From Ancylobacter rudongensis (GTDB lineage: Bacteria > Pseudomonadota > Alphaproteobacteria > Rhizobiales > Xanthobacteraceae), in NCBI RefSeq assembly GCF_900100155.1, contig NZ_FMTP01000002.1:248001-312000 (forward strand): 64,000 nt of DNA, read 5' to 3'. A program made the translations under genes and the position numbers. The notes under the pieces were generated by a model that saw nothing but the letters and a program-made list of their open reading frames with translations, was not told where the DNA came from and searched no databases. Of this stretch, positions 5,193 to 23,169 are shown in pieces (the stretch's first letter is position 1; each line of letters opens with the position of its first letter).

Positions 5193-5599
5193 GGGCGCAA
5201 GGCCGGGCGGACGACCTGCCGGCGGTGAGCCGGGCGGCGGCATCCAGGCCGACCGCGCCGGAGCGGGTCTCGCCGATCTGCAGGAGGTGGCGGGCCGACT
5301 CCGAGCGCACGCAAATGGCGGTCGAGCCGGTCGCCCCGAAGATCATCGCCGAGAGCCTGAAGGACTTCTCCGAGGTCGCGCGAGCCAAGCTGCGCATAGA
5401 GGCCGGTGAATATCACCGCGGCCATCTGCGCACGCTCGCTCAGTGGGTCGAGGTGGTGAGCAGGTCAGAGATTCGGCGGATGGGGAACAAGTCGGACCGT
5501 CTGCGCACGCGTGCTGCCGCATCACGCGTCGGAGCGGCGGCGAACGGTGTTCGCAGTTTTGTACGGAAGTGGCGCGCCCGAAGAGATTCGAACTCCTGA
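5189..5599 (+). CDS. Hypothetical protein at the left edge of the integrated element
   Basis: 136-aa open frame whose ATG overlaps the adaptor stop by 4 bp. The middle (about residues 43-100) is charged and helical-looking, with GC-rich third positions as in real genes here, and vaguely resembles phasin-type coiled proteins. The last ten codons run into the tRNA-Arg remnant that forms attL, and the stop lies inside that 47-bp core. The end is therefore the same with or without the insertion. No family is recognised. Expression of this frame is uncertain. Confidence 0.35.
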   Translation: MRAQGRADDLPAVSRAAASRPTAPERVSPICRRWRADSERTQMAVEPVAPKIIAESLKDFSEVARAKLRIEAGEYHRGHLRTLAQWVEVVSRSEIRRMGNKSDRLRTRAAASRVGAAANGVRSFVRKWRARRDSNS

Positions 5600-5616
5600 C
5601 CCCCAGATTCGTAGTC
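5570..5616. repeat. attL: left 47-bp core repeat (3' part of tRNA-Arg)
   Basis: Identical over 47 bp to 23093-23139. It covers the tRNA-Arg from its encoded CCA end through the anticodon loop, but the 5' half of the tRNA is missing here, so this copy is a non-functional remnant. The sequences diverge at once on either side of the core. Confidence 0.95.
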
Positions 5617-5737: not shown

Positions 5738-7609
5738 ATGACCGATTTTCCCGACCTGATGGCGGCGGTTGCGGGGCGGCTTCTAGGGGAGCCGAACCGG
5801 GCGATGTCGTCGAAGGACGAGCTTCGCTTCGGCACCCATGGCAGCCTGTCGGTGAAGGTGGGCGGGCCGCATAAGGGCACATGGGCGGACCATGAGGCCG
5901 GCGAAGGCGGCGGCGTGCTCGACCTGATCGCCCGGCTGCAGGGCGGCGGGCGCGAGGGCGCGCTGAGCTGGCTGAAGCAGACCTTCCCCGACTTCGCCGG
6001 CCGGCCGGAGGCGCCCTCTACCGGGCGGCGCATCGTCGCCACCTACCCTTATGTCGACGAGGCCGGCGCGCTGCTGTTCGAGGTGGTGCGCTATGAGCCG
6101 AAGGAGTTCCGCCAGCGCCGGCCGGACGGCGCCGGCGGCTTCGCGTGGAACCTGCAGGGCGTGCGCCCGGTGCCCTATCATCTCCCCGAGCTGATCGAGG
6201 CCATCGGCTCGGAACGCACCGTCTTCATCGTCGAAGGCGAGAAGGACGTCGATCGCCTGCGCACCCTCAACGTACCGGCGACCTGCAATGCCGGCGGCGC
6301 CGGCAAGTGGAAGCTGGACTTCGTCGAGCACTTCGTCGGCGCCGATGTGGTGATCGTGCCGGATAATGACGATCCCGGCCGCGAGCACGCCGAGAAGGTG
6401 GCGCGGGCGCTGCAGCCGGTGGCGACGCGGGTGCGCGTGCTCACCCTGCCGAACCTGCCGCGCAAGGGCGACGTCTCGGACTGGCTGCAGGCCGGCGGCA
6501 CGGTGGAGGAACTGCACCGGCTGACGGAAGCGGCGCCGGACTGGCGCCCGGCGGCGGCGACCCGGCTGCCGGCCGTGTGGTGGGGCGACGAGGACAAGCA
6601 GCCGCCGCTCTCCTGGCTGGTGAAGGGCCTGCTGATCGAGGGCGGCTTCTCCACCGTCTACGGCCCGCCCGGCACCTCCAAGAGCTTCCTCGTGCTCGAC
6701 CTTGCCCTGCACGTCGCCCATGGCCGCGACTGGTTCGGCAAGCGGGTGGCGGCGGGCGGAGTGGTCTATGTCTCCGGCGAGGGCGGCGCCGGCATGCTGA
6801 TGCGGATGAAGGCGTGGCGGCAGGAGAAGGATGGCGAGGCGGGCAAGCCCTTCGTGCTCGTCCCTTCCTCGGTCAACCTCTATGACGACGAGGAAGGCGT
6901 CGAGACGCTGATCGCCGATGTGAAGGACCACCAGGCCCGCATGAGCGCGCCGCTGCGGCTGGTGGTGCTCGACACGCTCTCGCGCATGATCGGCTCGGGC
7001 GACGAGGACAAGGCGCGCGACATCAACGTGGTGGTGCAGAAGGCGGAGCGTATCCAGCGCGAGCTGGGGTGCCACGTCCTCGTCGTGCATCACTCCGGCA
7101 AGGATACCGATCGCGGCGCGCGGGGCTCCAATGCCCTGCTGGGCGCCGTGGATGCGGCGATAGAGATCACCCGTCACGAGACGGGTGTGTGTGCAGGCAA
7201 GATCGCGAAGGTGAAGGACGGCGGCGATATCGCGCCCTTCAAGTACGAGCTGCTGCAATCGGTTCTCGGGACGGATGAGGACGGTGACGACATCACCTCC
7301 TGCATTATCGCTCCCACGGATGCGAGCACCGGCGAGTCGAAGGGCACCACGCGGCTACCCGACGCAGCGCGCATCGCGCTCGAAGCCCTCAAGGCAGCGC
7401 TGGTCGAGCAGGGCCAGCCCTCGCCCGGCGGGCAAATCCCCAATGGCGTGAAGATCGTGTCGGTGGAGGTGTGGCGTGAGTACGCCTACCGGCGCGGTCT
7501 CGGCGACACACAGGAGGCGAAGAAGAAGGCATTCCAACGGGCTCGGGAGACCCTGTCGAGCAAGGGCGAGGTGGCAATGTGGGAGCCGTGGGCATGGCTA
7601 ATCCGTTGA
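5738..7609 (+). CDS. Phage-type primase-helicase (TOPRIM + RecA-like ATPase)
   Basis: 623 aa. The N-terminal part (about 1-90) resembles the front of virus primases but shows no zinc-binding Cys cluster. A TOPRIM region follows with VEGEKD at 165-170 and the acidic DND at 209-211. A RecA/AAA_25-type helicase domain begins about residue 290, with Walker A GPPGTSKS at 309-316 and the hydrophobic strand ending VVLDTLSR as Walker B. It should prime and unwind DNA for autonomous replication of the element. It is the first gene inside attL and is followed at once by the GGGAC/GTCCC array, a candidate origin. The ATG has a GGGAGGGCGGC stretch directly upstream. Confidence 0.88.
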   Translation: MTDFPDLMAAVAGRLLGEPNRAMSSKDELRFGTHGSLSVKVGGPHKGTWADHEAGEGGGVLDLIARLQGGGREGALSWLKQTFPDFAGRPEAPSTGRRIVATYPYVDEAGALLFEVVRYEPKEFRQRRPDGAGGFAWNLQGVRPVPYHLPELIEAIGSERTVFIVEGEKDVDRLRTLNVPATCNAGGAGKWKLDFVEHFVGADVVIVPDNDDPGREHAEKVARALQPVATRVRVLTLPNLPRKGDVSDWLQAGGTVEELHRLTEAAPDWRPAAATRLPAVWWGDEDKQPPLSWLVKGLLIEGGFSTVYGPPGTSKSFLVLDLALHVAHGRDWFGKRVAAGGVVYVSGEGGAGMLMRMKAWRQEKDGEAGKPFVLVPSSVNLYDDEEGVETLIADVKDHQARMSAPLRLVVLDTLSRMIGSGDEDKARDINVVVQKAERIQRELGCHVLVVHHSGKDTDRGARGSNALLGAVDAAIEITRHETGVCAGKIAKVKDGGDIAPFKYELLQSVLGTDEDGDDITSCIIAPTDASTGESKGTTRLPDAARIALEALKAALVEQGQPSPGGQIPNGVKIVSVEVWREYAYRRGLGDTQEAKKKAFQRARETLSSKGEVAMWEPWAWLIR

Positions 7610-7932
7610 AGCGGGACATGAATGTCCCGGCGGGACAGTCCCGGGAGTCCCGGTGGGAACGGGACACGGGACATCCCCCTAAAGGGGATGTCCCGTGTCC
7701 CGCCACACCCATGCCGGCCGTGCTGGTCGAGCTGGCGGACCGGGTGCGGCGGCTGGTGCCGAGCCACCGTGACCCCGAGGCGTTCCACGAGGCCAAATCG
7801 GAGATCGAGGCGGAGCTGCGGCGCCTGTCGCGGGTCCTCCCCCCGGTCCCTGTATGCGGGCGGCGGGAGCGCTTGAGTTCGCTAGACGGGGCGGGATTGA
7901 GTCCTAAAGTCTCCGGCTTGAGAAAGGGTTGA
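7594..7932 (+). CDS. Small hypothetical protein carrying the GGGAC repeat array
   Basis: 112 aa if started at the ATG at 7594 (a GTG at 7579 is possible). It overlaps the primase end by 16 bp. The first third is encoded by the GGGAC/GTCCC repeat array and is probably unstructured. The middle is a charged helical segment (about residues 45-85, with EAKSEIEAELRRL). The DNA may matter more than the protein in the 5' part. No family recognised. Confidence 0.5.
   Translation: MANPLKRDMNVPAGQSRESRWERDTGHPPKGDVPCPATPMPAVLVELADRVRRLVPSHRDPEAFHEAKSEIEAELRRLSRVLPPVPVCGRRERLSSLDGAGLSPKVSGLRKG
7613..7702. repeat. GGGAC/GTCCC array with perfect 19-bp inverted repeat; candidate replication origin
   Basis: In 89 bp there are four GGGAC and five GTCCC pentamers, arranged as nested palindromes. 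The right end is a perfect inverted repeat: arms CGGGACACGGGACATCCCC (7660-7678) and its complement (7684-7702) around a 5-base loop. A second dyad, CGGGACAT-GA-ATGTCCCG, lies at 7612-7629. It sits directly after the primase-helicase gene, where satellites and phages often place their origin. Origin or regulatory function is inference. A strong RNA hairpin is the alternative. Confidence 0.7.
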
Positions 7933-7934
7933 GA

Positions 7935-8513
7935 ATGCAGGATTTGCATGGCTCCTCCCTCTTCGGCGACGTGACCGGGAAGCCGGCGGAAACCCTCTCC
8001 AAGAAGGGCTTTGCCGAGGCGATCGGCGTCTCTGCCGGGCGCGTGTCGCAGATGATAGCCGGCGGGCTTCCCGTCGAGCCGAACGGGCGCATCCATGTGG
8101 CGCGGGGCAAGGCGTGGGTGGCCGAGAATGTCGACCCCAACCGGCGCCGCGCCTCGCTCGACGGCCCGGCTTCCTCGGCTTCCACCCCGCCGGCTCTTGT
8201 CTCGCATCGGGCCGTTCGCGACGCGGCGGAGGCGGAGATCGCCCGGCTGAAGGCCGAGCGCATGGGGCGTGCGCTGATCGACCGGGCGGCGACGCTGCGC
8301 ACGATTGAGAGCCGCGCCCGCTTCGAGCGCGACGCCTGGCTCGGCTGGGTGAACCGGGCCGCGCCGGACATCGCCTCCACCACCGGGGCGGACCTTGCCG
8401 CCACCGTCGCCGTGCTGGACCGGCTGGTGCGCGCCCAGCTCAACGTGCTGGCAGACCTTCCTCTCGATAAGCTGGGCGCCAGCGATGATGACTGGCAAGG
8501 AGACGACGCATGA
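7935..8513 (+). CDS. Terminase small subunit-like DNA packaging protein (HTH)
   Basis: 192 aa from the ATG at 7935 (a TTG two codons earlier is possible). Residues about 20-55 form a winged-HTH/Nu1-like segment (FAEAIGVSAGRVSQMI) as in DNA-recognising small terminases. The remainder is Ala/Arg-rich and helical, fit for oligomerisation, with an acidic tail. Its place just before the large terminase supports the call. It would choose the packaging start site and so decide whether the element packages itself. Sequence similarity to a named family is not certain by eye. Confidence 0.7.
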   Translation: MQDLHGSSLFGDVTGKPAETLSKKGFAEAIGVSAGRVSQMIAGGLPVEPNGRIHVARGKAWVAENVDPNRRRASLDGPASSASTPPALVSHRAVRDAAEAEIARLKAERMGRALIDRAATLRTIESRARFERDAWLGWVNRAAPDIASTTGADLAATVAVLDRLVRAQLNVLADLPLDKLGASDDDWQGDDA

Positions 8514-8818
8514 GCGCGACTATCGCGATGAAGGACGTGCTGGCGGCCATGGACGCTCTCCGTGCGTCCCTTGCCCGTCACGAGGCCAAGGTCCTGCAGG
8601 TCGAACACTCACTGTACTGGGAGGTGCCTCTCGAAGAAATGGACGTGAGCCTCGACGCATATCCCGAGAACCTGGACGTCGGCGATCTGGAAGACGACAT
8701 GAGCCACATCCGCGAGTTCTACTTTGCCGAGCCATGGCCGGAGATGTACGCCGAGAAGCTCGCAGCGATCCTGCGCTACATCGGCACCCTTGAGCTTGGG
8801 AAACCCGCCGATGACTGA
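8510..8818 (+). CDS. Hypothetical acidic protein between the terminase genes
   Basis: 102 aa, overlapping the small terminase stop by 4 bp and the large terminase start by 8 bp, so it is translationally coupled to both. It is acidic, with a helical first third and a Tyr/Trp/Phe-rich segment (about residues 70-85). The position suggests a packaging accessory protein, but no motif shows it. Confidence 0.65.
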   Translation: MSATIAMKDVLAAMDALRASLARHEAKVLQVEHSLYWEVPLEEMDVSLDAYPENLDVGDLEDDMSHIREFYFAEPWPEMYAEKLAAILRYIGTLELGKPADD

Positions 8819-10703
8819 CCTTGCCCAGGCGACGCTGGCCGAGCTCACCGCCGAGCTGGTCGATGCGGCCTGGCGGCGGGGGCTGCGGCCGGAGCTGCAG
8901 CTGACCGTCACCGAATGGGCGGACGCCAACCGCACCCTGCCGGGCACCAATGCCGAGCCGGGCCCGTGGCGCACCGCCCGCGTGCCCTATCTCGCCGAGA
9001 TCATGGACTGCCTCTCGACCGCTTCGCCCGTCGAGCGGGTGGTGCTGATGAAGGGAGCCCAGACCGGCGGCACCGAGGCCGGGCTCAACGCCATCGGCTA
9101 TTGGGTCGCGCACGCGCCGGGGCTCATCCTCGCCGTCTGGCCCTCCATCGACATGGTGCGGCGTAACTCGCGCACCCGCATCGAGCCGCTGATCGAGGGC
9201 ACGCCTGCCCTGCGCTCCCGCATCGCCCCGGCCCGCTCCAAGGATCCCGGCAATACGGTGGGGCTGAAGGAGTTCCCCGGCGGCGCCCTCATCATGACCG
9301 GCGCCAACTCCGCCACCGGCCTGCGCTCCACCCCAGCGCGCTATCTCGTGCTCGACGAGGTGGACGCCTTCCCGGCGGACGCCGATGGCGAGGGCGACCC
9401 GGTGGCGCTGGCGGTGCAGCGCACCGTGACCTTCCGGGGGCGGCGCAAGATCTTCCTCATCTCCACCCCGACCGAGGCCGGCGTGTCACGGATCGAGAAG
9501 GCCTATGCCGAGAGCGACCAGCGCCGCTACTTCGTGCCGTGCCCCCACTGCGGCACGCACCAGGCGCTGAGCTGGCGCGGCGTGACCTGGCCGGAGGGCG
9601 AGCCGCGCAAGGCGTTCTATGCCTGCGAGGCCTGTGGCGGGGTGATCGAGGAGGCGGACAAGCCCGCCATGCTGGCCAAGGGCGAGTGGCGGCCGACAGC
9701 CCAGGGCGACGGGCTCACCGCCGGCTTCCACCTCTCGGCGCTGTACTCGCCCTTTGAGAGCTGGGGAGAGATCGCCGCCGACTTCCTCACCTCGAAGCGC
9801 GACCCGGCGCGGCTGAAGACATGGACCAACCTCAAGCTCGGCGAGGCCTATGAAGACCGGGACATGGCGCCGCTGGCGCCTGATAGTCTCGCCTCACGCG
9901 GCATCGCCTGCGACCCGGCATGGACCGAGTTGCTCCCGGAAGGCGTCGCCGTCATCACCGCCGGCGTCGACACCCAGGACGACCGCATCGAGGTGGAGTT
10001 CGTCGGCTGGGGCCGGGGCGAAGCCAGCTGGTCGCTCGACTACGATATCCTGCACGGCGACACCTCGCGCCCCGAGGTGTGGGCGGCGCTCGATCGCCTG
10101 CTCGCCCGTCGCTTCCGTCACCAGAAGGCCGTCCCCGACCTTCCGATCCTCGCCGTGGCGATCGATTCCGGCGGGCACCGCACCGACCAGGTGATGCGGT
10201 TCTCGGCCGAGCGGCTCAACCGCCGGATATGGGCGATCAAGGGCCGAGGCGGGCCGGGTGTGCCGCCCTGGCCGAAGCGCCCGCCCAAGCTGCGCAGCGC
10301 CAGCCTCGCCCCGGTGCACATTGTCGGCGTCGACACGCTCAAGCATGGCCTGCTCTCGCGCCTGCGCATCGTCGATGGCGGCCCCGGCGCCTGCCACTGG
10401 CCGGCCGAGCGCGACTATCACTGGTTCACCGGCCTCGTCGCCGAGCGCCCGGTGCGCCGCTACACGCGCGGCGTTGCCCGCATCGAGTGGGTGCCCGACC
10501 CCGGCGTGCGCAACGAGCCCCTCGACTGCCGCGTCTACGCTACGGCCGCCCTGCACGGGCTCTATGCCGCCGGCATGAGCTTGGCCGAGATGGTGGGCAA
10601 GGTGGAAGGGGCGGAGGTGCGGGCTGGGGCTGTGGGAGCGGAGCCTGCCGGCGAAGTAATGCGCCGGGCGCCGGCCGTGGTGCGGTCGAGTTGGGTGGGG
10701 TGA
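8811..10703 (+). CDS. Phage terminase large subunit (GpA family)
   Basis: 630 aa, normal length for lambda GpA-type terminases. The ATPase has a deviant Walker A, LMKGAQTGGT at about 79-88, and Walker B YLVLDEVDAF at 178-187. A zinc-ribbon pair CPHC and CEAC follows at about 244-278. The C-terminal nuclease half keeps GVDTQDDRIEV at the expected place. Start chosen at the ATG at 8811, which overlaps the previous gene; an in-frame upstream ATG at 8724 would extend it through that gene. It packages DNA into the head encoded further right. Confidence 0.93.
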   Translation: MTDLAQATLAELTAELVDAAWRRGLRPELQLTVTEWADANRTLPGTNAEPGPWRTARVPYLAEIMDCLSTASPVERVVLMKGAQTGGTEAGLNAIGYWVAHAPGLILAVWPSIDMVRRNSRTRIEPLIEGTPALRSRIAPARSKDPGNTVGLKEFPGGALIMTGANSATGLRSTPARYLVLDEVDAFPADADGEGDPVALAVQRTVTFRGRRKIFLISTPTEAGVSRIEKAYAESDQRRYFVPCPHCGTHQALSWRGVTWPEGEPRKAFYACEACGGVIEEADKPAMLAKGEWRPTAQGDGLTAGFHLSALYSPFESWGEIAADFLTSKRDPARLKTWTNLKLGEAYEDRDMAPLAPDSLASRGIACDPAWTELLPEGVAVITAGVDTQDDRIEVEFVGWGRGEASWSLDYDILHGDTSRPEVWAALDRLLARRFRHQKAVPDLPILAVAIDSGGHRTDQVMRFSAERLNRRIWAIKGRGGPGVPPWPKRPPKLRSASLAPVHIVGVDTLKHGLLSRLRIVDGGPGACHWPAERDYHWFTGLVAERPVRRYTRGVARIEWVPDPGVRNEPLDCRVYATAALHGLYAAGMSLAEMVGKVEGAEVRAGAVGAEPAGEVMRRAPAVVRSSWVG

Positions 10704-10786
10704 GGGGGCTTAGGCGGAGCTATTGCTGATACCCCCGTCAGATGCCACGCTGCCGCTCAATCGCGCGCAGCGGGGAAGTTGAAGCA

Positions 10787-12130
10787 ATGCTGAACCTCCA
10801 AGTGAAATCGTTCCATGACGCGCTCGCGGAGACTCCTGACCTAAAGGTCAATGGTGAGTGGTTGTGTATTAACATCGAATCCCGAACCGCTTGGCCTACG
10901 AAGCCGCAAGCATTCATCTTCGAGGGCCGTCAGGTCTGGGTGATGCCACTATCAACGGACTGCTACCCTGGACTGGCTACCAGAAAACCATCCGACATGG
11001 ATCATGATGAGTGCCTAGCCCTTCTACACCGTGCACTGAGCGTCCTTACGTGGCTTGAAAACGCCGGCGCAACAGTGGTTCAGATGAGCGGCGGCAATAT
11101 TCCACGTATGATGGGGATGCGGCTGGGGTTAGGATATGCAATTCGCGAAGACTTTGATTTGTCTGATCTGCCTACGATTGAAAGTCCGCGTGGCAAGCTT
11201 GCGCTAGCGCTCATGCGCGAAGGTCGGGGACTAAACCACCCTGGCTACTCATTCCTTTCATTCTTTCGGGTGCTGGAGACAGCCATTCCGAACGGCAAGA
11301 TCCGAGGCACTTGGGTAACCGACAATATCGACAAGCTCGATGGTCACCGCGCCAAGAAAGCCATCGAAAAATTGAAGGCGACAGTTGAGGGCGATATCGG
11401 CGAACATCTCAGGGACTCGGGGCGACATGCTATCGCGCACGCCAGTTCAGAGCCGGTAATAGATCCCGACGACCCGCGCGACTCACGGCGGCTAGAGGCA
11501 GAGTTGCCGATAATCGAGGCGCTGGCAGTTTTGGCGATCGAGGAGCATCTAGGTATACAAACTACGCAAACAATCTGGAAAGAGCATCTATTTGAATTGC
11601 GGGGATGGAAGGGCATAGTTCCGCACACTGTTATTGAGGCAAGTCGCTCCGGAATACCTCCTGAATTTGAAGGTTCTATTGACCTTCCCATCATCAATTT
11701 TCGACTCCGTCGCAGTGAGCCGTTCCCATTATTCGAGGGGATGATACCGGCACGAATAGGTATCACAGATCAGCGCGTTGAGTTGGTTTATCGAAGCGCG
11801 GACGGACTCGCTGAGTTAACATTCTGGTTGAATTTCGCGGCGGAGAGGCTCGAGTTCGACATCGATAGCAGCCTCATCCTGCACGATGATGGTAGCGCGG
11901 CGGCAGTACGAAATGGAAAACAAATATGTAGATTTATCTGGGATTATTTCTGTAATGGGGAGATTCAAATTTGGGATGCGGACACGGGACGTCTTTTATC
12001 TAGGGTTGGCGCATTCATTCCAATAAATATGATGGCCAACCATGATGGCCATGTTGCTGAACTCGCAAAATGGGACGAAATTATACAATCGAGAGAACAG
12101 GCGGAGGGCATCGCGATAACTGACGTCTAA
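10787..12130 (+). CDS. Cargo protein of unknown function with HEPN-like Rx4H motif
   Basis: 447 aa from the ATG at 10787, which has a GGGGAAG site upstream; an earlier ATG at 10742 has none. It is less GC-rich than the packaging genes, with irregular codon use, so it is probably acquired. Residues about 165-240 form a helical region with RHAIAH at 213-218. That arrangement (R-x4-H after a helix) is the catalytic signature of HEPN RNases. The C-terminal third is beta-rich. No transmembrane segment. It lies directly behind the large terminase and opens the cargo block. A defence or toxin role is inference; I do not recognise the full-length family. Confidence 0.65.
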   Translation: MLNLQVKSFHDALAETPDLKVNGEWLCINIESRTAWPTKPQAFIFEGRQVWVMPLSTDCYPGLATRKPSDMDHDECLALLHRALSVLTWLENAGATVVQMSGGNIPRMMGMRLGLGYAIREDFDLSDLPTIESPRGKLALALMREGRGLNHPGYSFLSFFRVLETAIPNGKIRGTWVTDNIDKLDGHRAKKAIEKLKATVEGDIGEHLRDSGRHAIAHASSEPVIDPDDPRDSRRLEAELPIIEALAVLAIEEHLGIQTTQTIWKEHLFELRGWKGIVPHTVIEASRSGIPPEFEGSIDLPIINFRLRRSEPFPLFEGMIPARIGITDQRVELVYRSADGLAELTFWLNFAAERLEFDIDSSLILHDDGSAAAVRNGKQICRFIWDYFCNGEIQIWDADTGRLLSRVGAFIPINMMANHDGHVAELAKWDEIIQSREQAEGIAITDV

Positions 12131-12161
12131 TTATCGTATAATATACAGTTAAAAAGGCCGA

Positions 12162-12575
12162 CTATCGCAATTTCAAATTTGAAGCCACGCAAAGTCGGGT
12201 GAATACAGGTTCGTTTTTAGGCATATCGCCGCAGATTATCTTTATAATCTCTGGGTTCGCGAATTCCGGCTGCGGCTCCACCCTGTGGATCGTCATTTTC
12301 GTGCAGACGTCAATCCTGAAGTCCAACGTATCCTTCATTTCCACCGAAGTTGACTTACCCATCGATGGATCGCGAAGGTACATTAGTTTTCCGCAATTGC
12401 CGACAACTTCGGCTTGAATACTAGACATGTCACGCGTCGCAACCCAAGCGTCGAGGCGTCGCAAGTACAGGGCGCGCAACTGCTCAATCTGCTCGGGTGA
12501 GACATTAGGCAATGTTTGCGCATGAGCCGGCAGTGCAAGGGCGGTCGACAGAAAAAACAGCGTTAGTCGCTTCAC
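12162..12575 (-). CDS. Small secreted protein with four cysteines
   Basis: 137 aa from a GTG at 12575 with a perfect GGAGG eight bases upstream; the open frame extends ten codons further but without a ribosome site. A textbook Sec signal (KR, hydrophobic LTLFFLSTALALP, AHA cleavage site near residue 19) directs it to the periplasm. Four cysteines in the mature part could make two disulfides. It is convergent with the preceding cargo gene and lies 30 bp from it. Candidate roles are superinfection exclusion or host-surface change, both unproven. Confidence 0.7.
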   Translation of the reverse strand: MKRLTLFFLSTALALPAHAQTLPNVSPEQIEQLRALYLRRLDAWVATRDMSSIQAEVVGNCGKLMYLRDPSMGKSTSVEMKDTLDFRIDVCTKMTIHRVEPQPEFANPEIIKIICGDMPKNEPVFTRLCVASNLKLR

Positions 12576-12769
12576 TGCGCTTTCCTCCGGTGGGCTCACG
12601 CTCAATTATACGAAACAGCACGCTTAGAGTCTCGCGTGAGTTCATTGGGCCATTGCGCCAGCGATAGGCGTCGTGTCGACTTCGCTGCCCGGCCGCATGG
12701 CGCAAGCACCCCTTGGCTGCCGTTGGGCAAGGCAGTACCGTCCGAGAGTTGTAACGTGCGGATGGTGCC

Positions 12770-14197
12770 ATGACGGTTGAACTGCAGCCGCTTATCCTCG
12801 TGATCGCGGCACTCGTCGCCTTCGTCCTCCTCGCGGTTTTGGTCGCCCTGGCGCTAGGCTTGATGCGCGCCCGCCGGAAGCTCGCGGCCCTCGAACAACG
12901 ATTCAAGCCCGTTCTCGATGTCGAGGCCGAGATAGAGCGGCTCAGGGCCGAGGCGCACCGCACGATCACGCAGGCACTCACCGAGGCTACGGGCACACTG
13001 GAAAAGCTACGGTCCGAGACGGCCCAGGCTGAAACCCAGCTCTCGACCTTGCGGACGGACTACAAGGACAAGCGGACGACCTATGAGCGCCTGGCGGCCG
13101 AAGTCGCGATCTTCGACGAGCGCCTGGCCTTTGCAGAAATGGGCGTCTACGAGCCGCATTTCGACTTCACCGACAGCGAGGCCTACAAGGCCGAAATCCT
13201 GAAGGTGCGGGGCCTGCAGAAGGAGCTGGTGGCGGCTGGCACCGCCGTCGTCTGTCCGATCGAGTGGGCAGTGGACGGCAGCAAGGCCAAGGGCCGAACG
13301 ATGACCAACCGGAACATCCGGCTCACCCTGCGGGCTTTCAACAATGAGTGCGACGCGGCCATCGCCAATGCCCGGTGGAACAACATCAACGCCATGGAAA
13401 AGCGGATAGAGCGCGCGTCCGAGCAGATCGACAAGCTGAACGAATCCAACAAGATCTTCATTGGAAGCGAATACGCGAAGCTGAAGCTGCGGGAGCTGTA
13501 TCTCACCCACGAGCACCGTGAACGGGCGAAGCAGGAGCGCGAGGAACGATCGGAGGCCGCTCGGCTCGCCCGCGAGGAGCAGAAGCTGCTTCGCGATCTC
13601 GAACGCGCCCAGGACGAGGAGGCGCGGTATGAGCGCCTGCTGGCGAAAGCCAGGGCGGAGGCCGCGAGCTTTCAGGGGCAAAAGCTGGAAGCCTTCGAGG
13701 CGCAGATACAGGTGCTGGAGCGCGATCTCGCAGAGGCTCACGCGAAAGCCGAGCGCGCCCAGGCGATGGCCGAACGCACCCGCTCCGGCTACGTCTACAT
13801 CATCTCGAATGTCGGCTCGTTTGGCGCGGACGTGGTAAAGATCGGCCTGACCCGGCGCCTCGATCCGAACGACCGCGTGCGCGAGCTTGGCGATGCCAGC
13901 GTGCCGTTTTTCTTCGACACCCACGCCATCATCTACAGCGATGATGCGCCGGCGCTGGAGCGGGCGCTCCATGCTGAGTTCAACCGGGGCCGCATCAACA
14001 CCGAAAACAGCCGCAAGGAGTTCTTCCGGGTGCCGAGCATCGACGATGTCGAGGCGGCTGTTAAGCGGCTGGCGCCCGCCTCGGCGTTCTTCAGGGACGT
14101 GGAAGCGCAGGAGTATCGCGAAACGCTGGCGCGGCGGAATGCGGCGCTCTCCGTTTCAACGGACGCGAAGCAGAGCATGTTTCCAGAAGAACTATAA
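12770..14197 (+). CDS. Membrane-anchored DUF4041 / GIY-YIG (MUG113, T5orf172-type) nuclease-like protein
   Basis: 475 aa. One N-terminal membrane span (about 10-31) and a coiled coil (about 35-115) come first. A DUF4041-like region (about 120-260) with EMGVYEPHFDF follows, then a second long charged coiled coil (about 240-340). A C-terminal GIY-YIG-type domain (about 342-440) has GYVYI, VKIGLTRR and a downstream R-x3-L. This architecture recurs in phage and defence-linked loci. It could be an anti-phage nuclease tethered at the membrane or a DNA-processing protein. The codon use is GC-rich like the host. The ATG lacks a strong Shine-Dalgarno site. Confidence 0.8.
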   Translation: MTVELQPLILVIAALVAFVLLAVLVALALGLMRARRKLAALEQRFKPVLDVEAEIERLRAEAHRTITQALTEATGTLEKLRSETAQAETQLSTLRTDYKDKRTTYERLAAEVAIFDERLAFAEMGVYEPHFDFTDSEAYKAEILKVRGLQKELVAAGTAVVCPIEWAVDGSKAKGRTMTNRNIRLTLRAFNNECDAAIANARWNNINAMEKRIERASEQIDKLNESNKIFIGSEYAKLKLRELYLTHEHRERAKQEREERSEAARLAREEQKLLRDLERAQDEEARYERLLAKARAEAASFQGQKLEAFEAQIQVLERDLAEAHAKAERAQAMAERTRSGYVYIISNVGSFGADVVKIGLTRRLDPNDRVRELGDASVPFFFDTHAIIYSDDAPALERALHAEFNRGRINTENSRKEFFRVPSIDDVEAAVKRLAPASAFFRDVEAQEYRETLARRNAALSVSTDAKQSMFPEEL

Positions 14198-14215
14198 CAC
14201 GGAATTATCTTCCAA

Positions 14216-14249
14216 AGCGGTCTACTAGATTCCAACAGAAAGGACCGCT
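14216..14249. terminator. Possible hairpin between convergent cargo genes
   Basis: AGCGGTC (14216-14222) pairs with GACCGCT (14243-14249) around a 20-base loop, between two converging genes and touching the stop of the minus-strand one. There is no U-run, so terminator function is weakly supported. Confidence 0.3.
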
Positions 14250-15288
14250 ACATTCGGACAACGAGATATTTTATCCATATCATGGCAAATTCGATTGCAA
14301 ACTGTGTTTGCTCTCGCGATAGGACTGGCATTTCGGCACTCCCAGGCCCATGCCCTAGAGGATTCCTAATCTTAGTAAAAAATTCCTTGAGTAAAATGGC
14401 TTCCCACGGCGTAATGAATGAATTTTCCTTCGAGGCAAGATTATCTATGTAGTTGTGTGCACCTTTCTCTTTGCCGTGCGTCCATCCTTTTTGTTCTGAT
14501 ATTATTTTTATCGTACTTTCAAGGGCGCGAGCGGCATAGAATGCAGGATCGCGTCCATTAGAATCTCGTAAATCCAACGCCTCTTTCATGTCGTGATCGA
14601 CGTTCTTCCAAATCGGAGACGATAATATTAACCAAAATGGAGACTCAACTTCCTTTTGCACTAATCCTTCATTCGATATTTGAATATAACCATTGTGATA
14701 ATTAATAGGATAACCCGCTTGGGTGAACCGAGCGTTCAACTCCTCAACAGATGAGCGAAAATCAGAAAGCTCCTGCTCTCGCATCCTATGCACAGCTTGG
14801 ATCTGATCTTTGGGCAAATTTAAGTCGGCCCTCCTAAGAGAGGCGAGCGTTTTCTCAATAACTGAAACTGGTTTGCTGTGCCTCGTGGCTATTTGATTCT
14901 CCCTTAGCCTAAATCCAAGCTCAATCAAGCTGATACGATCTTTAATATGAACATCTGGAGATCCGGAAATTGGCTGATTCATCCAATTTTCGCATATTTT
15001 AATCATCGTATTTTTATGAGTTTGAATAGTATCATTTCCATTCCATTTAATATTGTACGAGTACCATTGTGGAGCAAGCTCGATAAGTCCTAGCTCTCTT
15101 GATAGCTCTCTGTGAAGTCGCGTCCAAATCTCTACGTTATAAGCAATCTCTTTTCCATCATCGTAGTATGGAAATAAATCCTCTGATAAAATTCGGAACG
15201 ACTGAACTATTAATCTCTTATCTCTGTCATCGAATGATCTAAAAATAGCGGTGCTTTCGTAGCGTCTGGCGAATATATCTATAAGCAT
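14248..15288 (-). CDS. AbiJ-like abortive-infection protein with C-terminal HEPN-type motif
   Basis: 346 aa, strikingly AT-rich against all neighbours, so recently acquired. The N terminus (IFARRYE, RLIVQSFRILSEDL, PYYDDGK) matches the AbiJ N-terminal domain 4 pattern. The C-terminal region (about 250-346) is helical, with KIRNPLGHG giving R308-x4-H313, the HEPN RNase signature. AbiJ-type proteins are known phage-exclusion toxins that act by abortive infection. The ATG has GGAG at the right distance, and the site lies in a perfect 14-bp palindrome, suggesting control at the ribosome site or operator. No antitoxin is fused; none is obvious next to it except perhaps the XRE pair upstream. Confidence 0.75.
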   Translation of the reverse strand: MLIDIFARRYESTAIFRSFDDRDKRLIVQSFRILSEDLFPYYDDGKEIAYNVEIWTRLHRELSRELGLIELAPQWYSYNIKWNGNDTIQTHKNTMIKICENWMNQPISGSPDVHIKDRISLIELGFRLRENQIATRHSKPVSVIEKTLASLRRADLNLPKDQIQAVHRMREQELSDFRSSVEELNARFTQAGYPINYHNGYIQISNEGLVQKEVESPFWLILSSPIWKNVDHDMKEALDLRDSNGRDPAFYAARALESTIKIISEQKGWTHGKEKGAHNYIDNLASKENSFITPWEAILLKEFFTKIRNPLGHGPGSAEMPVLSREQTQFAIEFAMIWIKYLVVRM

Positions 15289-15291
15289 ATT

Positions 15292-15305
15292 TTTCTCCGG
15301 AGAAA
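15292..15305. promoter_or_regulatory. Perfect palindrome over the ribosome site of the AbiJ-like gene
   Basis: TTTCTCCGGAGAAA reads the same on both strands and contains the GGAG of the minus-strand gene starting at 15288. It could be an operator or an RNA element that hides the ribosome site. Confidence 0.5.
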
Positions 15306-15414
15306 CGTAAGCGTCCGTTGGTTGTTTTGTTTGATCTTAATTCGCTATAGGTTCATCTCCCTCTATCGTCACACCGTCGAATTGAGTCTATTCGTATCAA
15401 CTTATTCATTAGAT

Positions 15415-17851: not shown

Positions 17852-18379
17852 ATGCAGTACTTTTCGCCCCAGCAGATCCGCGAACTGACCGGCATCACCC
17901 CGGAGACCCTGCGCGACTGGCGTCACCGTGGTCTGCTGACCGGGTTCGGCGTGGTGCCGCTGGAGAACGGCTGGACGCGCGATCTGGAGAAGATCAAGCA
18001 GCTCAAACGCCCGACGTGGCTGTATCTGCGTGGCGAGGTCACGACGCTCGCTCTGGCGAAGTCGCTGACGACGCTACGTGTCGAACTGAGCGCGGCTCTT
18101 CACATCGCCTCGCTGCTCAACCTTTACGTCATCGCCTGGCTGGTCGAGAGCTACGGCGCGTACCGCGACATGCCCTATGCGATCGCCTGGCCCGAAGAGG
18201 ACGGCCACCCGTCCCCCATCGGGATCGAGCCCGGCAAGTTCGGAGTTGTTCGACTCGACGACCTCAATCGCATCCCCGCCTATGCGGGCGGCAAGGCGCT
18301 TGTTTTCGACCTCAAGAAGCTGGCCCTCGACCTTCCCGAGCCGCTTCGCGACCTCCTGTCCAACGAACAGGCCTCGTGA
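17852..18379 (+). CDS. MerR-like DNA-binding regulator
   Basis: 175 aa. The N terminus (FSPQQIRELTGITPETLRDW, then RHRGLL) is a MerR/excisionase-type winged HTH. The remainder is a helical region and a small mixed domain without metal-binding cysteines. It stands just upstream of the portal gene, overlapping it by 1 bp (TGATG), and behind a promoter with a long dyad. I infer that it controls the head operon, as activators of late genes do in other satellites. Confidence 0.72.
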   Translation: MQYFSPQQIRELTGITPETLRDWRHRGLLTGFGVVPLENGWTRDLEKIKQLKRPTWLYLRGEVTTLALAKSLTTLRVELSAALHIASLLNLYVIAWLVESYGAYRDMPYAIAWPEEDGHPSPIGIEPGKFGVVRLDDLNRIPAYAGGKALVFDLKKLALDLPEPLRDLLSNEQAS

Positions 18380-19767
18380 TGATGGGCCTCGTCTCCTCCC
18401 TCTTTGACCGCGCCAAGAGCGCGCTGCGCCCGGCCTCGCGCTCCTATGAGGGCGCGGCGACGGGCCGGCGCGCGACCGGCTGGGGCGGGATGCGCAACCA
18501 GCACGGCGCCGCGCAGGCGGCCCGTGCTCCCCTCGGCTACCGCGCCCGCTATCTGGTGGCGAACAACCCGAACGCGGCGGCTGCCAAGGCGGCGTGGGTG
18601 GCGGCGCTGGTCGGCACGGGCATCGTCCCGGCCGTGACCGGCACGCTGGCGGCGCGCTGGACGGCCTGGACGGACGAGGCCGACGCCGACGGCCTGATGG
18701 ACTTCTATGGCCTCACGGCCCTGATGGTGGGCGGCATGGTGGTGGATGGCGAGGCGCTGGCGCTGCTGATCGCCACCCCGGCGGGCCTGCGCATTCGGGT
18801 GCTCGATCCCGACCAGCTGGATGCCTCGCTCACCCGCCCGCTCCCCCAGGGCGGGCGCATCGTCAATGGCGTCGAGTTCGATATGTTCGGCTCCCGCGTC
18901 GCCTACTGGATCGTCAAGGAGCGCCCGGAGATCGGCCTCGGCCTCAACCTTCAGCCGGTGCGCGTGCCGGCGGAAGACGTGGTGCATCTGTTCCGCCCCG
19001 ACTTCCCCGGCCAGGTGCGCGGCGTGTCGTGGTTCGCCCCGGCGATCCTGCGGCTGGCCGAGCATGACGAGTGGCACGGCGCCCAGCTCACCCGCCAGAA
19101 GGTCGGCGCGCTTCTCGCCGGCCTCATCACCACCACGGATGGCACCGCGCCCTTCGGCGGCGAGACGCAGGGCGAGGCGCTGATCGGCTCGCTGGAGCCG
19201 GGCGCCATGGTGGTGCTGCCGCCGGGCAAGGACGTGACCTTTTCCAACCCGCCCGCTATCGCGCAGGAGGCCAACGACTTCGCCCGCATCACCCTGCACG
19301 AGATCGCCGCCGCGCTCGGCCTGCCCTATGAGGTGCTGACCGGCGACCTCTCCAGCGTCAACTATTCCTCGATCCGCGCCGGCCTCGTCGAGTGGCGCCG
19401 CCGGGTGGAGATGACCCAGCACAATGTGATCGTCTTCCAAGCGCTGCGCCCCATCTGGCGCCGCTGGGCGATGATCGAGAGCCTGCAGGGCCGGCTTGCC
19501 GCCCGCCCGCAGGAGCTGCTCCCGGTGCGCTGGATCACCCCGAAGCAGCAATGGGTGGACCCGGCCAAGGACGTACAGGCGGAGATCGAGGCGATCAATG
19601 CCGGGCTGATGAGCCGCCGCGAGGCGGTGGCGGCGCGCGGCATGGATGTGGGCGCGCTCGACGCCGAGATCGCCGCCGACAAGGCCCGCGAGGCGAGCCT
19701 CGGCCTCGCCTTCACCGCGCCCGCCACGGCCAAGCCGACGCCGGCGATCGAGGAGACCGTGGCATGA
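18379..19767 (+). CDS. Phage portal protein (lambda GpB family)
   Basis: 462 aa, typical for lambda-type portals. The N terminus has many basic residues. Conserved features include RARYLVANNPNAAAAK (about 52-67), WFAPAILRL and the C-terminal stretch LPYEVLTGDLSSVNYSSIR (about 315-333), a hallmark of this family. It forms the dodecameric entry port for DNA and binds the large terminase. Tandem ATGs at 18379 and 18382. The stop overlaps the protease-capsid gene by 4 bp. Confidence 0.93.
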   Translation: MMGLVSSLFDRAKSALRPASRSYEGAATGRRATGWGGMRNQHGAAQAARAPLGYRARYLVANNPNAAAAKAAWVAALVGTGIVPAVTGTLAARWTAWTDEADADGLMDFYGLTALMVGGMVVDGEALALLIATPAGLRIRVLDPDQLDASLTRPLPQGGRIVNGVEFDMFGSRVAYWIVKERPEIGLGLNLQPVRVPAEDVVHLFRPDFPGQVRGVSWFAPAILRLAEHDEWHGAQLTRQKVGALLAGLITTTDGTAPFGGETQGEALIGSLEPGAMVVLPPGKDVTFSNPPAIAQEANDFARITLHEIAAALGLPYEVLTGDLSSVNYSSIRAGLVEWRRRVEMTQHNVIVFQALRPIWRRWAMIESLQGRLAARPQELLPVRWITPKQQWVDPAKDVQAEIEAINAGLMSRREAVAARGMDVGALDAEIAADKAREASLGLAFTAPATAKPTPAIEETVA

Positions 19768-21596
19768 ACGCTCCCGCCGAGATCCTCACCCGCCGCGCGC
19801 CGCTTCCCGCCTCCAGCTGGGATGCCGACAGCCAGACCTTCGAGGCCGTGCTCTCCACCGGCGCCGCCGTCGAGCGCTGGGACGTGCGCGGCCCCTATGA
19901 CGAGATTCTCCTCCTGTCGCAGCCGGCGTGGCCCGCCCGCGTGCCCCTGCTCGACAGCCACGGAAGGGAGAGCGTGGACCGCCAGCTCGGGAACGTCGAC
20001 ACGCTGCGCGTGGTCGGCGGGGACCTCCTCGGGCGCGCCACGCTCTCCCGCCACAATCCCCGCTCCCGGCGCATCGCCGCCGAGCTGTCGGACGGTGCCA
20101 CCTTCGGCATCTCCATCGGCTACGGCGTCGAGCGCTGGTCCGAGCGCACCAATGCGAAGACCGGCCGCCGCGAGAAGGTGGCCGAGCGCTTCACCCTGAT
20201 CGAGGCCAGCCTCGTCGTTGTCCCCGCCGACCCGCATGCAGGCATCAGGAGCCACGACATGACGGTCAGCACCGAGCCGGCGCCCGCGCCCGCTCATTCC
20301 ACCCCGGCCCCCGCGCCGTCCCTCAACCCGCCGGCCGCTGCAGAGCGGGCGGCGATCAACATGGAGATCCGTTCCATCGCCAACGTCGCCGGCCTCGACC
20401 AGGGCTGGATCGACAGCCAGATCGACGCCAACGCCACCACCGACGCCGCCCGTGGCGCCGCCTTCGCCGCCATGCAGGCCCGCAGCGCCCCGCTGCAGAC
20501 CTTCCACCCGACCGTGGCGACGGTCACTCAGGATCACACTGACCCGGCGGCGATCCGTTCCGCCATGGGCGAGGCTCTCGCCCATCGCCTCGCCCCCGGC
20601 CGGGTGAAGCTGGAGGGGCGCTCGCGCGCCTATGCCGGCTTCCGCATGCTGGACATGATCGGCGACCTCGCCCAGGCGCGCGGCGAACGCCTTAACCTGC
20701 GCGACCAGAACGCGCTGATGGAGCGCGCCGTCGGCGCCCATTCCACCAGCGACTTCCCGCTCTTGCTGGCGGACGCGGCCAACAAGGCCCTGCTCGCCAA
20801 CTACGCCGCCGCCGAGCCGACCTATCGCCTGATCGCCGCGCGCCGGTCCTTCACCGACTTCCGCGACCACTCTTTCCTGCGCATCGGCGACTTCCCGACC
20901 TTCCGGGAGACCAACGAGGGCGGCGAGCTGAAATACGGCACCCTCTCCGAGAACCGCGAGAAGGTGCGGGCGAAGGAGCTGAATGCCGGCATCGCCATCG
21001 GCCGCCGCGCCCTCATCAATGACGACCTGTCGGCGCTGGCGGACTTCTCCTCCATGATCGCCATCCGCGCCGCCAGCGACGAGAATGCCCGCGTCTACGG
21101 CCTGCTCGCCGCCAATGCCGCCCTCTCGGACGGCAAGGCGCTGTTCCATGCCGACCACGGCAACAAGGCCGCTGCCGGCGCCGTCCTCTCGGCCGCCTCG
21201 GTCGCCCTCGCCGTCGCCGCGCTGCGCAAGCAGAAGAGCCTCGACGGCGTGCCGCTCAACCTCGCCCCCCGCTTCCTCGTGGTTGGGCCGGACACCGAGC
21301 TTGCCGCCCGCCAGGTGCTCGCCGCCATCACCGCCGCCAAGGCGGGCGATGTGAACCCGTGGGCGGGCACGATGGAGCTGGTGGTCGACGCCAACATCAC
21401 CGGCGCGGTCTGGTACGTCATGGCGGACCCCGCTGCGGCGCCCAGCCTCGTCTATGGCTACGTCTCCGGCGCTGAGGGGCCGCAGATCCGCACCGAGATC
21501 GACTTCGACACCCGCGCCGTCAAGGTTGCCGCCGGGCTCGACTTCGGCTGCGGCGTCATCGACTTCCGTGGCCTCTACAAGAACGAGGGCGCGTGA
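19764..21596 (+). CDS. Prohead protease fused to major capsid protein (HK97/Mu-like)
   Basis: 610 aa. The front half (about 1-165) is an S78/U35-type prohead protease with candidate catalytic His66 (LLDSHGR), Ser117 (FGISIGY) and Glu147 (TLIEASL). A Pro/Ala/Ser-rich linker (about 165-195) precedes a capsid domain with the HK97-like fold to the C terminus (SFLRIGDFPTF, NAGIAIGRRALINDDL, MADPAAAPSLVYGYV). Scaffold/protease and shell are thus made as one chain in stoichiometric amounts and probably cut apart during assembly. It overlaps the portal by 4 bp and the connector gene by 1 bp. Confidence 0.92.
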   Translation: MNAPAEILTRRAPLPASSWDADSQTFEAVLSTGAAVERWDVRGPYDEILLLSQPAWPARVPLLDSHGRESVDRQLGNVDTLRVVGGDLLGRATLSRHNPRSRRIAAELSDGATFGISIGYGVERWSERTNAKTGRREKVAERFTLIEASLVVVPADPHAGIRSHDMTVSTEPAPAPAHSTPAPAPSLNPPAAAERAAINMEIRSIANVAGLDQGWIDSQIDANATTDAARGAAFAAMQARSAPLQTFHPTVATVTQDHTDPAAIRSAMGEALAHRLAPGRVKLEGRSRAYAGFRMLDMIGDLAQARGERLNLRDQNALMERAVGAHSTSDFPLLLADAANKALLANYAAAEPTYRLIAARRSFTDFRDHSFLRIGDFPTFRETNEGGELKYGTLSENREKVRAKELNAGIAIGRRALINDDLSALADFSSMIAIRAASDENARVYGLLAANAALSDGKALFHADHGNKAAAGAVLSAASVALAVAALRKQKSLDGVPLNLAPRFLVVGPDTELAARQVLAAITAAKAGDVNPWAGTMELVVDANITGAVWYVMADPAAAPSLVYGYVSGAEGPQIRTEIDFDTRAVKVAAGLDFGCGVIDFRGLYKNEGA

Positions 21597-21813: not shown

Positions 21814-22014
21814 ATGGCGAAGCGCCCTGCCCTCATCCCGCAGTCTGACGCCACCCGCCTGTTCAAGGCGGCGCGGGCGGCGGGATATGCGCGGGCGCGC
21901 CTTATCACCCATCCCGACGGGCGGATCGAGATCGTCGGCGAAGACGCGGAAGCTGCCTCGCCGGCGATGGAGCTTTCGCCTTACGAAAAGTGGAAGGCGG
22001 GCAATGCGCGCTAA
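21814..22014 (+). CDS. Small hypothetical protein upstream of integrase
   Basis: 66 aa (MAKRPALIPQSD...), basic at the front, with a short beta-like segment (ARLITHPDGRIEIVGE). Its 3' end overlaps the integrase start by 11 bp. Small basic genes here often regulate integration or act in excision, but there is no clear HTH, so excisionase function is only possible. Confidence 0.6.
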   Translation: MAKRPALIPQSDATRLFKAARAAGYARARLITHPDGRIEIVGEDAEAASPAMELSPYEKWKAGNAR

Positions 22015-23092
22015 GCTCTCAGGTATCAACACGATCCGCCGCAGGCTCGCGAGCGGCAAGGAGGCGACGTACTATTATCACCGGGCGAGCGGGCAACGCC
22101 TCGCCGGCGAGCCCGGTTCGCCCGCCTTCCTCGCCTCGATCGCTGAGGCGGAAGCGAGCATGCGCAACCGGACGGCCGGCACACTGGCCGGCCTGTTCCG
22201 TGACTTCGAGCAGACCGCGAAGTGGCGCCGGCTGGCCGAGAGCACGAAGGCCGAGTATCGGCGGATTTTCACCTTCTGGGATGGCGAGTACGGAACCTGC
22301 CCTGTCCTCGCGCTGCAGGACAAGGCGTTTCGTCGCGACGTGCTGAAGTGGCACGACACCTTTTCCGCCGACAAGCCGCGTGAAGCCGACAACCGCGTCA
22401 CGATTCTCGCGCGTGTGCTCTCGTGGGCAGCAAAGGACGGCCCGCTGGACGTGAATGTCCTGCAGGGCTTCGATCGCGCGTATCAGGGCGACCGTTCTGA
22501 CAAGATTTGGCTGCCGGAGCATGTCGACGCCTTCATGGCGGTAGCGTCGCCAGAAATGCAGCTGGGTCTCGTGCTAGCACTGCATACGGGCCAGCGCCAG
22601 GGCGACCTCCTGCGCCTCGCATGGGGCAATTATGACGGCGCGCGCATCACACTGCGCCAGGGCAAGTCACGCCGTGCCGGGCGGGAGGGGCGCCTCATCA
22701 CCATCCGCTGCACCAAGGCGCTGAAGGACACGCTCGACGGCCTCGCCAAGCGCTCGACCCTGATCCTGACCACCAAGACCGGCCGGGCGTTCAAGAAGCG
22801 GTACTTCGCCGACCAGTGGGAAGCCACCTGCAAGGCGGCGGGCATCGAGGATCTACACTTCCACGATCTGCGCGGAACGACCGTCACCATGCTCTTTCAG
22901 GCCGGCTGCAACCTCGGCGAGATCGTCGCCGTGACCGGGCACACCCTGCGCCGCGCGCAGGAGATTCTCGACAAGTATCTCGCCCGCACGAGCACGATGG
23001 CGGACAGCGCAATTGCCAAGCTGGAGAACGTTCTGGAAACGGAGTTTGCAAAACAGACTGCCAAACGGGAGGCTCAGTCCGATGCTAAGTAA
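22004..23092 (+). CDS. Tyrosine site-specific integrase
   Basis: 362 aa. The N-terminal core-binding region covers about 50-150. The catalytic domain has Arg198 (TGQRQGD), His287 and Arg290 (HDLRGT), His313 (TGHT) and Tyr325 (DKYL), the complete tyrosine-recombinase set. It should integrate and excise the element at the tRNA-Arg core. The stop codon ends at the very base before the tRNA CCA, i.e. at the attR boundary, so the gene 3' end and the att site are packed together. Confidence 0.95.
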   Translation: MRAKLSGINTIRRRLASGKEATYYYHRASGQRLAGEPGSPAFLASIAEAEASMRNRTAGTLAGLFRDFEQTAKWRRLAESTKAEYRRIFTFWDGEYGTCPVLALQDKAFRRDVLKWHDTFSADKPREADNRVTILARVLSWAAKDGPLDVNVLQGFDRAYQGDRSDKIWLPEHVDAFMAVASPEMQLGLVLALHTGQRQGDLLRLAWGNYDGARITLRQGKSRRAGREGRLITIRCTKALKDTLDGLAKRSTLILTTKTGRAFKKRYFADQWEATCKAAGIEDLHFHDLRGTTVTMLFQAGCNLGEIVAVTGHTLRRAQEILDKYLARTSTMADSAIAKLENVLETEFAKQTAKREAQSDAK

Positions 23093-23139
23093 TGGCGCGC
23101 CCGAAGAGATTCGAACTCCTGACCCCCAGATTCGTAGTC
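23093..23139. repeat. attR: right 47-bp core repeat
   Basis: Identical to 5570-5616. Here the core joins the chromosomal 5' half of the tRNA, so the element's own copy of the 3' half restores a whole tRNA. Confidence 0.95.
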
Positions 23140-23169
23140 TGGTGCTCTATCCAGCTGAGCTACGGGCGC
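23093..23169 (-). tRNA. tRNA-Arg(ACG)
   Basis: 77-nt cloverleaf on the minus strand: acceptor GCGCCCG paired with CGGGCGC, D-stem GCTC/GAGC, anticodon stem CCAGA/TCTGG with loop CTACGAA (anticodon ACG, read as inosine-CG), T-arm loop TTCGAAT, discriminator G and encoded CCA. It reads CGU, CGC and CGA. It is the integration site of the element and stays functional because the inserted core repeats the 3' part. Confidence 0.97.

Follow-up and report, generated by a model that had tools for sequence, protein, structure and literature searches.

A repeat array behind a primase-helicase gene as a proposed replication origin, with a repeat word that covaries with the predicted recognition helix

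The 64-kb stretch of DNA analysed here (the window) contains a dense array of short repeats directly behind a primase-helicase gene. Very probably, replication of an integrated, satellite-like element of 17.6 kb starts at this array, which would be read by the element's own primase-helicase; both the origin function and the binding are inferred. This degree of confidence stems from the finding that the repeat word and the predicted DNA-reading residues change together in relatives. The analysis shows the position of the array, the recurrence of its layout, the predicted fold of the presumed reader, the covariation between residues and bases, and the joint divergence of reader and array in one pair of loci (L001/L003).

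The array, its presumed reader and the surrounding element

Array and hairpin: The initial annotation had proposed a candidate origin beside the primase on the basis of nine GGGAC/GTCCC pentamers in 89 bp, a perfect 19-bp inverted repeat with a 5-base loop and a second dyad, all directly after the primase-helicase gene and far denser than the surroundings. These observations hold throughout. The pentamers start at positions 7613, 7624, 7632, 7638, 7647, 7661, 7668, 7690 and 7697, and the array begins 3 nt past the helicase stop codon (7607-7609). Seventy-six pentamers are present in the whole window, and a scan in 10-bp steps found no other 90-bp stretch with four or more; at the window rate, the array stretch is expected to hold ~0.1 (Poisson tail ~3e-15, uncorrected for the choice of site). 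The arms of the inverted repeat (7660-7678 and 7684-7702) pair without mismatch, and the second dyad reads CGGGACAT-GA-ATGTCCCG. Folded as DNA, the array stretch reaches -43 kcal/mol (z -8.5), a value equalled by none of 200 shuffles. The array is not AT-rich (33% AT against 31% in the rest of the locus), and its richest 30-mer reaches 53% AT compared with 43% in controls. The annotation had further placed the repeats within a small coding frame. The array does lie inside an open frame (7579-7932), but the peptide that is conserved in relatives can start past it. The small ORF beyond the array has no Pfam or PHROG match.

Table 1. Positions, within the window, of the array, its parts and the genes of the surrounding element
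Feature	Position	Strand	Remark
Left attachment repeat	5570..5616	.	47-bp exact copy of tRNA-Arg(ACG) 3' end
Toprim-type primase / AAA_25 (RepA, T7 gp4-like) helicase gene	5738..7609	+	Pfam, PHROG and structure matches
C-terminal winged-helix domain, residues 513-623	7274..7606	+	Predicted, AlphaFold2 models
Predicted recognition helix, residues 592-609	7511..7564	+	K596, K597 and R601 covary with the DNA word
Repeat array, nine GGGAC/GTCCC sites (word CGGGACA)	7612..7702	.	Proposed origin; putative winged-helix binding sites
First dyad, CGGGACAT-GA-ATGTCCCG	7612..7629	.	Read from the sequence; folds as DNA
Terminal 19-bp hairpin, two sites per arm	7660..7702	.	Loop 7679-7683
CTAAAG hairpin tip (recurring CTWWAG apex)	7679..7684	.
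Small conserved ORF past the array	7711..7932	+	Start ATG 7711 or GTG 7720
Terminase small subunit	7929..8513	+	PHROG 57
Terminase large subunit (gpA)	8724..10703	+
Portal protein	18181..19767	+	Stretch tested; open frame from 17800
Fused head protease / major capsid protein	19752..21596	+	Stretch tested; open frame from 19392
Phage-type integrase	21887..23092	+	Abuts tRNA-Arg
Right attachment repeat	23093..23139	.	Inside tRNA-Arg(ACG) (23093-23169)

Primase-helicase: A single polypeptide carries a helicase part, a primase-like part and a winged-helix part. The helicase part matches AAA_25 (Pfam, E 9e-51); Toprim_3 and Toprim_2 match below the Pfam cut-off, and several PHROG DNA-primase families match as well. 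The full-length AlphaFold2 model is modest (pTM 0.44; best TM by query ~0.3). T7 gp4 and Twinkle head its structure matches, RepA, RecA and KaiC are also found, and the RepA-type helicase fold is represented among the best matches by 1nlf, 1g8y and 1olo, a likeness that concerns the fold only, without oligomer data. A winged helix is predicted for the C-terminus: the AlphaFold2 model of this domain (mean pLDDT 76, pTM 0.63) has the element order helix-strand-helix-helix-strand-strand, and a Foldseek search with the domain alone returned weak matches that include winged-helix proteins, none with E < 0.001.

Element: The two 47-bp repeats delimit an element of ~17.6 kb. Capsid-forming satellites (cf-PICI-like) carry an integrase with an attachment site, a primase, a terminase, a portal and a protease/capsid, and no tail genes. 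The gene set of such satellites is present between the repeats (attachment repeats, integrase, primase, terminase, portal and protease/capsid), and no match to tail genes was found in the 16 stretches scanned, some small ORFs lying outside the scan. The element looks like a capsid-encoding satellite; no data bear on its dependence on a helper. Its cargo includes MauJ, T5orf172 and AbiJ-type domains. Positions 10742-15816 of the window have a lower GC content (49-60%) and encode a protein with an AbiJ N-terminal domain and a T5orf172/DUF4041 protein; the cargo of this segment is possibly made of defence genes.

Recurrence of the array and covariation of its word with the helicase

Survey of relatives: Relatives were fetched by protein similarity to the helicase from genomes, viral contigs and phage records, and the counts below refer to the matches listed. 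We scored an array wherever a single hexamer recurred at least six times inside a 200-bp span between -50 and +350 relative to the helicase stop. Removal of near-duplicates reduced 299 ORFs to 233, of which 229 have at least 200 bp downstream. Among the matches listed, an array stands at the helicase stop in 115 of these 229 non-redundant loci, compared with 10 of 2401 control windows of 400 bp from the same loci; a further ten, upstream of -50 and within the 3' portion of the helicase frame, bring the total to 125. The first copy is found at a median of 4 bp past the helicase stop. The top hexamers are of 61 kinds, some of them shifted readings of one word, and registration on AC yields 29 five-base cores, some with doubtful registration. 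Among the matches listed, arrays are commoner behind helicases with a winged-helix match (101 of 142) than behind those without one (24 of 87), so that 24 arrays follow helicases that do not match the window-type winged helix. The remaining 41 of the 142 have fewer than six copies; some have four or five, a level also reached by shuffled sequence. Both the array frequency and the figure of 101 of 142 may lean upward, because the query alignments A2 and A4 and the winged-helix profile A5 were built from helicases whose arrays had already been seen. One scan used a hand-made locus list that omitted L013, L015, L016, L019, L020, L026 and L027 (primase-only matches or fragments), L072 and L118 (which run off the contig) and L172 (a duplicate); L097 is without a stop, and 4 of the 138 further loci gave no helicase ORF.

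Several loci depart from the common layout. Some of the 24 arrays without a winged-helix match, those of L024, L106 and L205 (GGGACA or GCGACA words), follow a helicase with another HTH-like C-terminal end (IPKSTV or similar). The array is translated inside the 3' helicase frame in L051, L052, L056, L059, L129, L149 and L157, giving VTCDD-like repeats in L051. In the viral contigs L044-L050, L053 and L055, a TCATCA repeat occurs in 13 copies in 250 bp, 450-1940 bp past the helicase. Rhizobium phage 16-3 (L032 5074-5432; 56250-56606) has an intergenic array behind p101, with 15 CGTGACA words in a gap of 357 bp, which makes it a candidate for the origin of this classical phage. The parts examined of its deposited annotation mark no origin, and the terms 'replication' and 'repeats' are absent from a paper on its relative AP-16-3.

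Hairpin tip: Perfect stems of at least 10 bp are present in 46 of the 125 arrays, 41 of which carry the word inside the arm, and in 5 of 352 control stretches. This control is flattering, since short stems are to be expected wherever words occur in both orientations. A CTNNAG tip with at least two further pairs occurs in 57 of the 125 arrays and in 12 of 569 control stretches, and 52 of the 57 tips are CTTTAG, CTATAG, CTAAAG or CTTAAG. Words face each other at equal distance from the centre (within 2 bp) in 32 of the 51 examined, mostly at 6-10 bp. The recurrence of the tip while word and stem change suggests a function of its own; that it serves melting or priming is a guess, made without priming data. 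The richest AT 30-mer exceeds the control in 85 of the 125 arrays, by a median difference of 0.03.

Close relatives: The same array stands behind the helicases of L002 (95% identical) and L004 (80% identical), and it is also kept in L031 and L124. In L003, whose helicase is 89% identical overall, the layout of the array is the same and the words have changed from CGGGACA to CGTGACA in nine copies, so that the pentamers read GTGAC/GTCAC. The DNA of L001 and L003, compared in 60-bp windows numbered from the helicase stop, is 81-96% identical from -960 to -240, 51-71% between -240 and +120, and 85-96% from +120 to +540; identity is also low (65%) in two further windows, +540 and +660. At the protein level, 40-residue blocks are 87-100% identical to residue 520 and then fall to 77%, 57% and 34%. 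The helicase body is 93-94% identical, the winged helix has much diverged and the array has been switched as a whole. The nearest winged helix to that of L003 among the loci compared is in L004, at 56%, and no donor was found among the loci collected, so fast local divergence instead of exchange remains possible. The initial annotation had expected an origin to persist in relatives while the encoded peptide changes, an expectation that is mostly borne out. The array is kept in L002, L004, L031 and L124, and an in-frame stop in L004 breaks the small peptide frame just past the array; the array-encoded end of the peptide differs in L003 because the words have switched (translation seen from 60 bp past the stop). 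Past the array, L002, L003 and L031 conserve the peptide, as L004 and L124 largely do. The opposite case, a conserved peptide with the repeats lost, was to refute an origin and does not occur in these five loci; L003 comes nearest, with the word lost and an array still present.

Residues and bases: Of the 125 arrays, 102 have a helicase that aligns to the C-terminal profile, and 99 combine a gap-free helix with a word. The register of the words was set on AC with a fixed rule, blind to the protein but drawn up after many words had been seen. The words of L036, L038, L139 and L153, which lack AC, were registered by hand and bear on r0, where r0 denotes R601, r-4 residue 597 and r-5 residue 596. 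Mutual information in 624 residue-by-base tests on the 99 helix/word pairs places the top four associations all on the recognition helix: r-4:p-2 (z 15.9), r-5:p-4 (11.2), r0:p+1 (11.1) and r-4:p-3 (10.5). Tests with z above 4 number 37, with 18 among the 66 of the helix region and 19 elsewhere. G at p-2 accompanies K, R or Q at residue 597 in 64 of 66 cases and other residues in 2 of 33. Among xGAC words, K or R at 597 goes with G at p-3 (xGGAC) in 45 of 50 and Q with T (xTGAC) in 8 of 10; these unfiltered counts are the figures of record, a filtered set of 55 words having given 44 of 47, 8 of 8 and 8 joint changes. G at p-4 is found in 65 of 75 cases with a basic residue at 596 and in 1 of 24 without one, where C takes its place in 20. 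Residue 601 is R in 88 of 99. The agreement of R601 with AC in 88 of 88 is weak evidence, as registration requires AC. R601 is lost in all four helix-bearing arrays without AC, which are 4 of the 11 cases lacking R: D occurs with G (L036, GGGAG), N with A (L038, GGGAA), and A and K with T (L139 and L153), the D601 and N601 pairings resting on one locus each. Proteins that read DNA commonly pair Arg with G, and Asn or Gln with A.

The shuffles behind the mutual information ignore relatedness, and we therefore added a set of diverged sequences, a count of changes on a tree, and comparisons of disjoint and distant pairs. In 51 sequences less than 45% identical outside the helix, r-4:p-2 ranks first, r-5:p-4 third and r-4:p-3 fourth, the second rank being taken by r-23:p+1, outside the helix. 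On a tree of the helicase body there are 8 changes of Q and 8 of T, 6 of which coincide, a number that none of 500 label shuffles reached; joint minus T changes amount to 2, against a mean of 6.7 and a minimum of 3 in 500 label shuffles. Among disjoint pairs, the three residues differ in 30 of 32 with different words and in 10 of 27 with the same word (p 3e-6), and divergence elsewhere in the domain is likewise higher for different-word than for same-word pairs (0.60 versus 0.41). Distant pairs (body identity below 50%) share the 5-mer in 125 of 214 when the three residues are the same, as opposed to 332 of 3847 others and to 37 of 215 when three control positions are used instead; K596-K597-R601 with GGGAC accounts for 74 of these 125 agreements. 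The code has exceptions: K accompanies GTGAC in L041, L120 and L295 (W-type helix), L299 and L133 combine K with other bases, L103 and L010 have Q without T, and 10 of 75 basic residues at r-5 lack G at p-4. Within these alignments, residues 596, 597 and 601 of the predicted recognition helix covary with the array word, which supports binding of the helicase to the array, a point on which there are no binding data. The CGTGACA arrays of L041, L120 and L295, with K and not Q at 597, raise the question of another way of reading this word.

Proposed mechanism and alternative readings

As the simplest reading, we propose that the CGGGACA words would be bound by several winged helices, in which K596 and K597 recognise GGG and R601 the C-G pair, and that this binding would gather helicase subunits on the array. 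The helicase would then assemble and open the DNA, the CTWWAG-tipped hairpin being perhaps the site of melting or priming, and the primase part would make the primer. Being neighbours, reader and sites could switch specificity together, via concerted mutation or exchange of a cassette of C-terminus plus array. Binding, loading, melting, priming and autonomous replication are all inferred, by analogy with known systems.

Covariation by itself suggests no more than binding of the helicase, and it would also fit an operator or copy-number control, in which the helicase on the array represses its own operon or later genes and replication starts elsewhere. Autonomous replication has not been shown, and GC skew lends no support to an origin: the cumulative curves of the complete phages 16-3 and X2_25 have no turn at the arrays. 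We nonetheless regard this alternative as unlikely. The array sits at the 3' end of a gene rather than at a promoter, a search for sigma-70-like promoters in 7400-8000 found none (other promoter types lay outside it), and the following gene differs among relatives while the array stays behind the helicase. That gene encodes a terminase in the window and VRR-NUC in X2_25; in L039 and L119 the ORF after the array is HNH-like when read by eye.

The terminase small subunit gene that follows the array could point to a packaging (pac/cos) site recognised by that subunit, but the word covaries with the recognition helix of the helicase, and phage 16-3 has its annotated cos end (60186-60195) over 3.5 kb away from the array, with terS located at 46-510. 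We rejected this extremely improbable reading on the position of cos and terS. The strong hairpin would suit a transcription terminator behind the helicase gene, with the repeats incidental; it lacks a T-run, no terminator-like site was found in 7400-8000, and the repeats upstream of the hairpin and the covariation would be left unexplained, so that a terminator is highly improbable and was set aside. An Rfam search around the array gave no match at the gathering score, and a known RNA was likewise discarded. Nested palindromes within an open frame could also represent a dispersed (REP-like) repeat or a selfish insertion. We give this idea almost no credence and dropped it: a pattern of three words (two direct, one inverted, gaps of at most 30) occurs at a single place in the 4.5-Mb genome (G000), and relatives have an array at the same position with another word. 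The candidate origin of the initial annotation is thus backed by its position, by recurrence in 115 of 229 loci and by covariation, its function as an origin being itself inferred.

With more reserve, we lean towards a wider reading, in which a broad class of phage and satellite initiators, each a single polypeptide of primase, RepA-type helicase and winged helix, reads a short asymmetric word NNN-AC-A repeated beside its own gene. The words would have diversified into roughly two to three dozen cores of five bases, under a partly predictive code set mainly by three residues of one helix; specificity would change by concerted switching and cassette exchange, private origins would avoid cross-replication, and the CTWWAG tip would be kept in many as a shared place for melting or priming. 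An origin behind the initiator gene, a winged-helix initiator and the swapping of reader and origin are already in print separately. Among the matches listed in a literature search (titles and starts of abstracts), we did not find this helicase class with arrays, the many words, the residue-base code or the common tip. The priority of the array family is not established, as subscription papers, for example those on SaPI origins, lay outside the search. In many phages and satellites, likely origins could be located without data other than sequence, and the arrays offer naturally occurring data on the co-evolution of initiator and origin, including a residue-to-base code.

Comparison with known replication systems

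As we read it, the array works like the origins of PICI, P4 and RSF1010 and meets the definition of none. It shares with PICI and SaPI its position only, 3 nt past the stop in the window; in the portion of the source available, their iteron origin lies immediately 3' of the initiator gene, the rep-ori segment of the E. coli PICI EcCICFT073 supports plasmid replication, and two iteron sets flank an AT-rich region (PMC6092414). The window array lacks an AT-rich region; its 5-7-base words form a single set in both orientations, together with a GC-rich hairpin, and the helicase beside them is of the RepA/gp4 type.

The P4 alpha protein resembles the window primase-helicase, with its putative Toprim-type part and predicted winged helix, in that one protein combines these functions. 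The helicase of P4 alpha is of the SF3 type, whereas that of the window is AAA_25/RecA-type, and the window array abuts its gene. According to the accessible text, alpha has a Toprim primase and a winged helix, the latter binding the origin repeats, after which the protein unwinds and primes (PMC4234260). The RepA-like helicase fold is the point of likeness to RSF1010 (IncQ), where RepA, RepB' and RepC are separate; in the window the helicase, the primase part and the presumed reader are fused. RSF1010 is described in the same partial source as having iterons and short stem-loop priming sites, ssiA and ssiB (PMC4234260). That the window hairpin acts as an ssi-like priming site is a guess by analogy, made without data on priming.

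The plasmid pRN1 has a primase-helicase (ORF904) with a C-terminal winged helix and an essential stem-loop 3' of the gene, an arrangement that resembles the one predicted in the window, and its authors note the same layout in several bacteriophages (PMC4234260, as far as the excerpt goes). Unlike the window system, pRN1 has an archaeo-eukaryotic primase, an SF3 helicase and no iterons, and its binding words are unidentified.

A parallel to the covariation comes from PLEs, satellites of Vibrio cholerae, in which changes in the DNA-binding domain of RepA_N go together with changes in the origin and the two are exchanged as modules (PMC8263062). The part of that paper at hand describes a RepA_N domain and three semi-palindromic iterons of ~30 bp, mentions no helicase part, and gives two specificity groups and no residue-level code, in all of which PLEs differ from the window system. 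The changing words of the arrays suggest why elements alter their origins, namely to keep replication private, as that available part argues for PLEs (PMC8263062).
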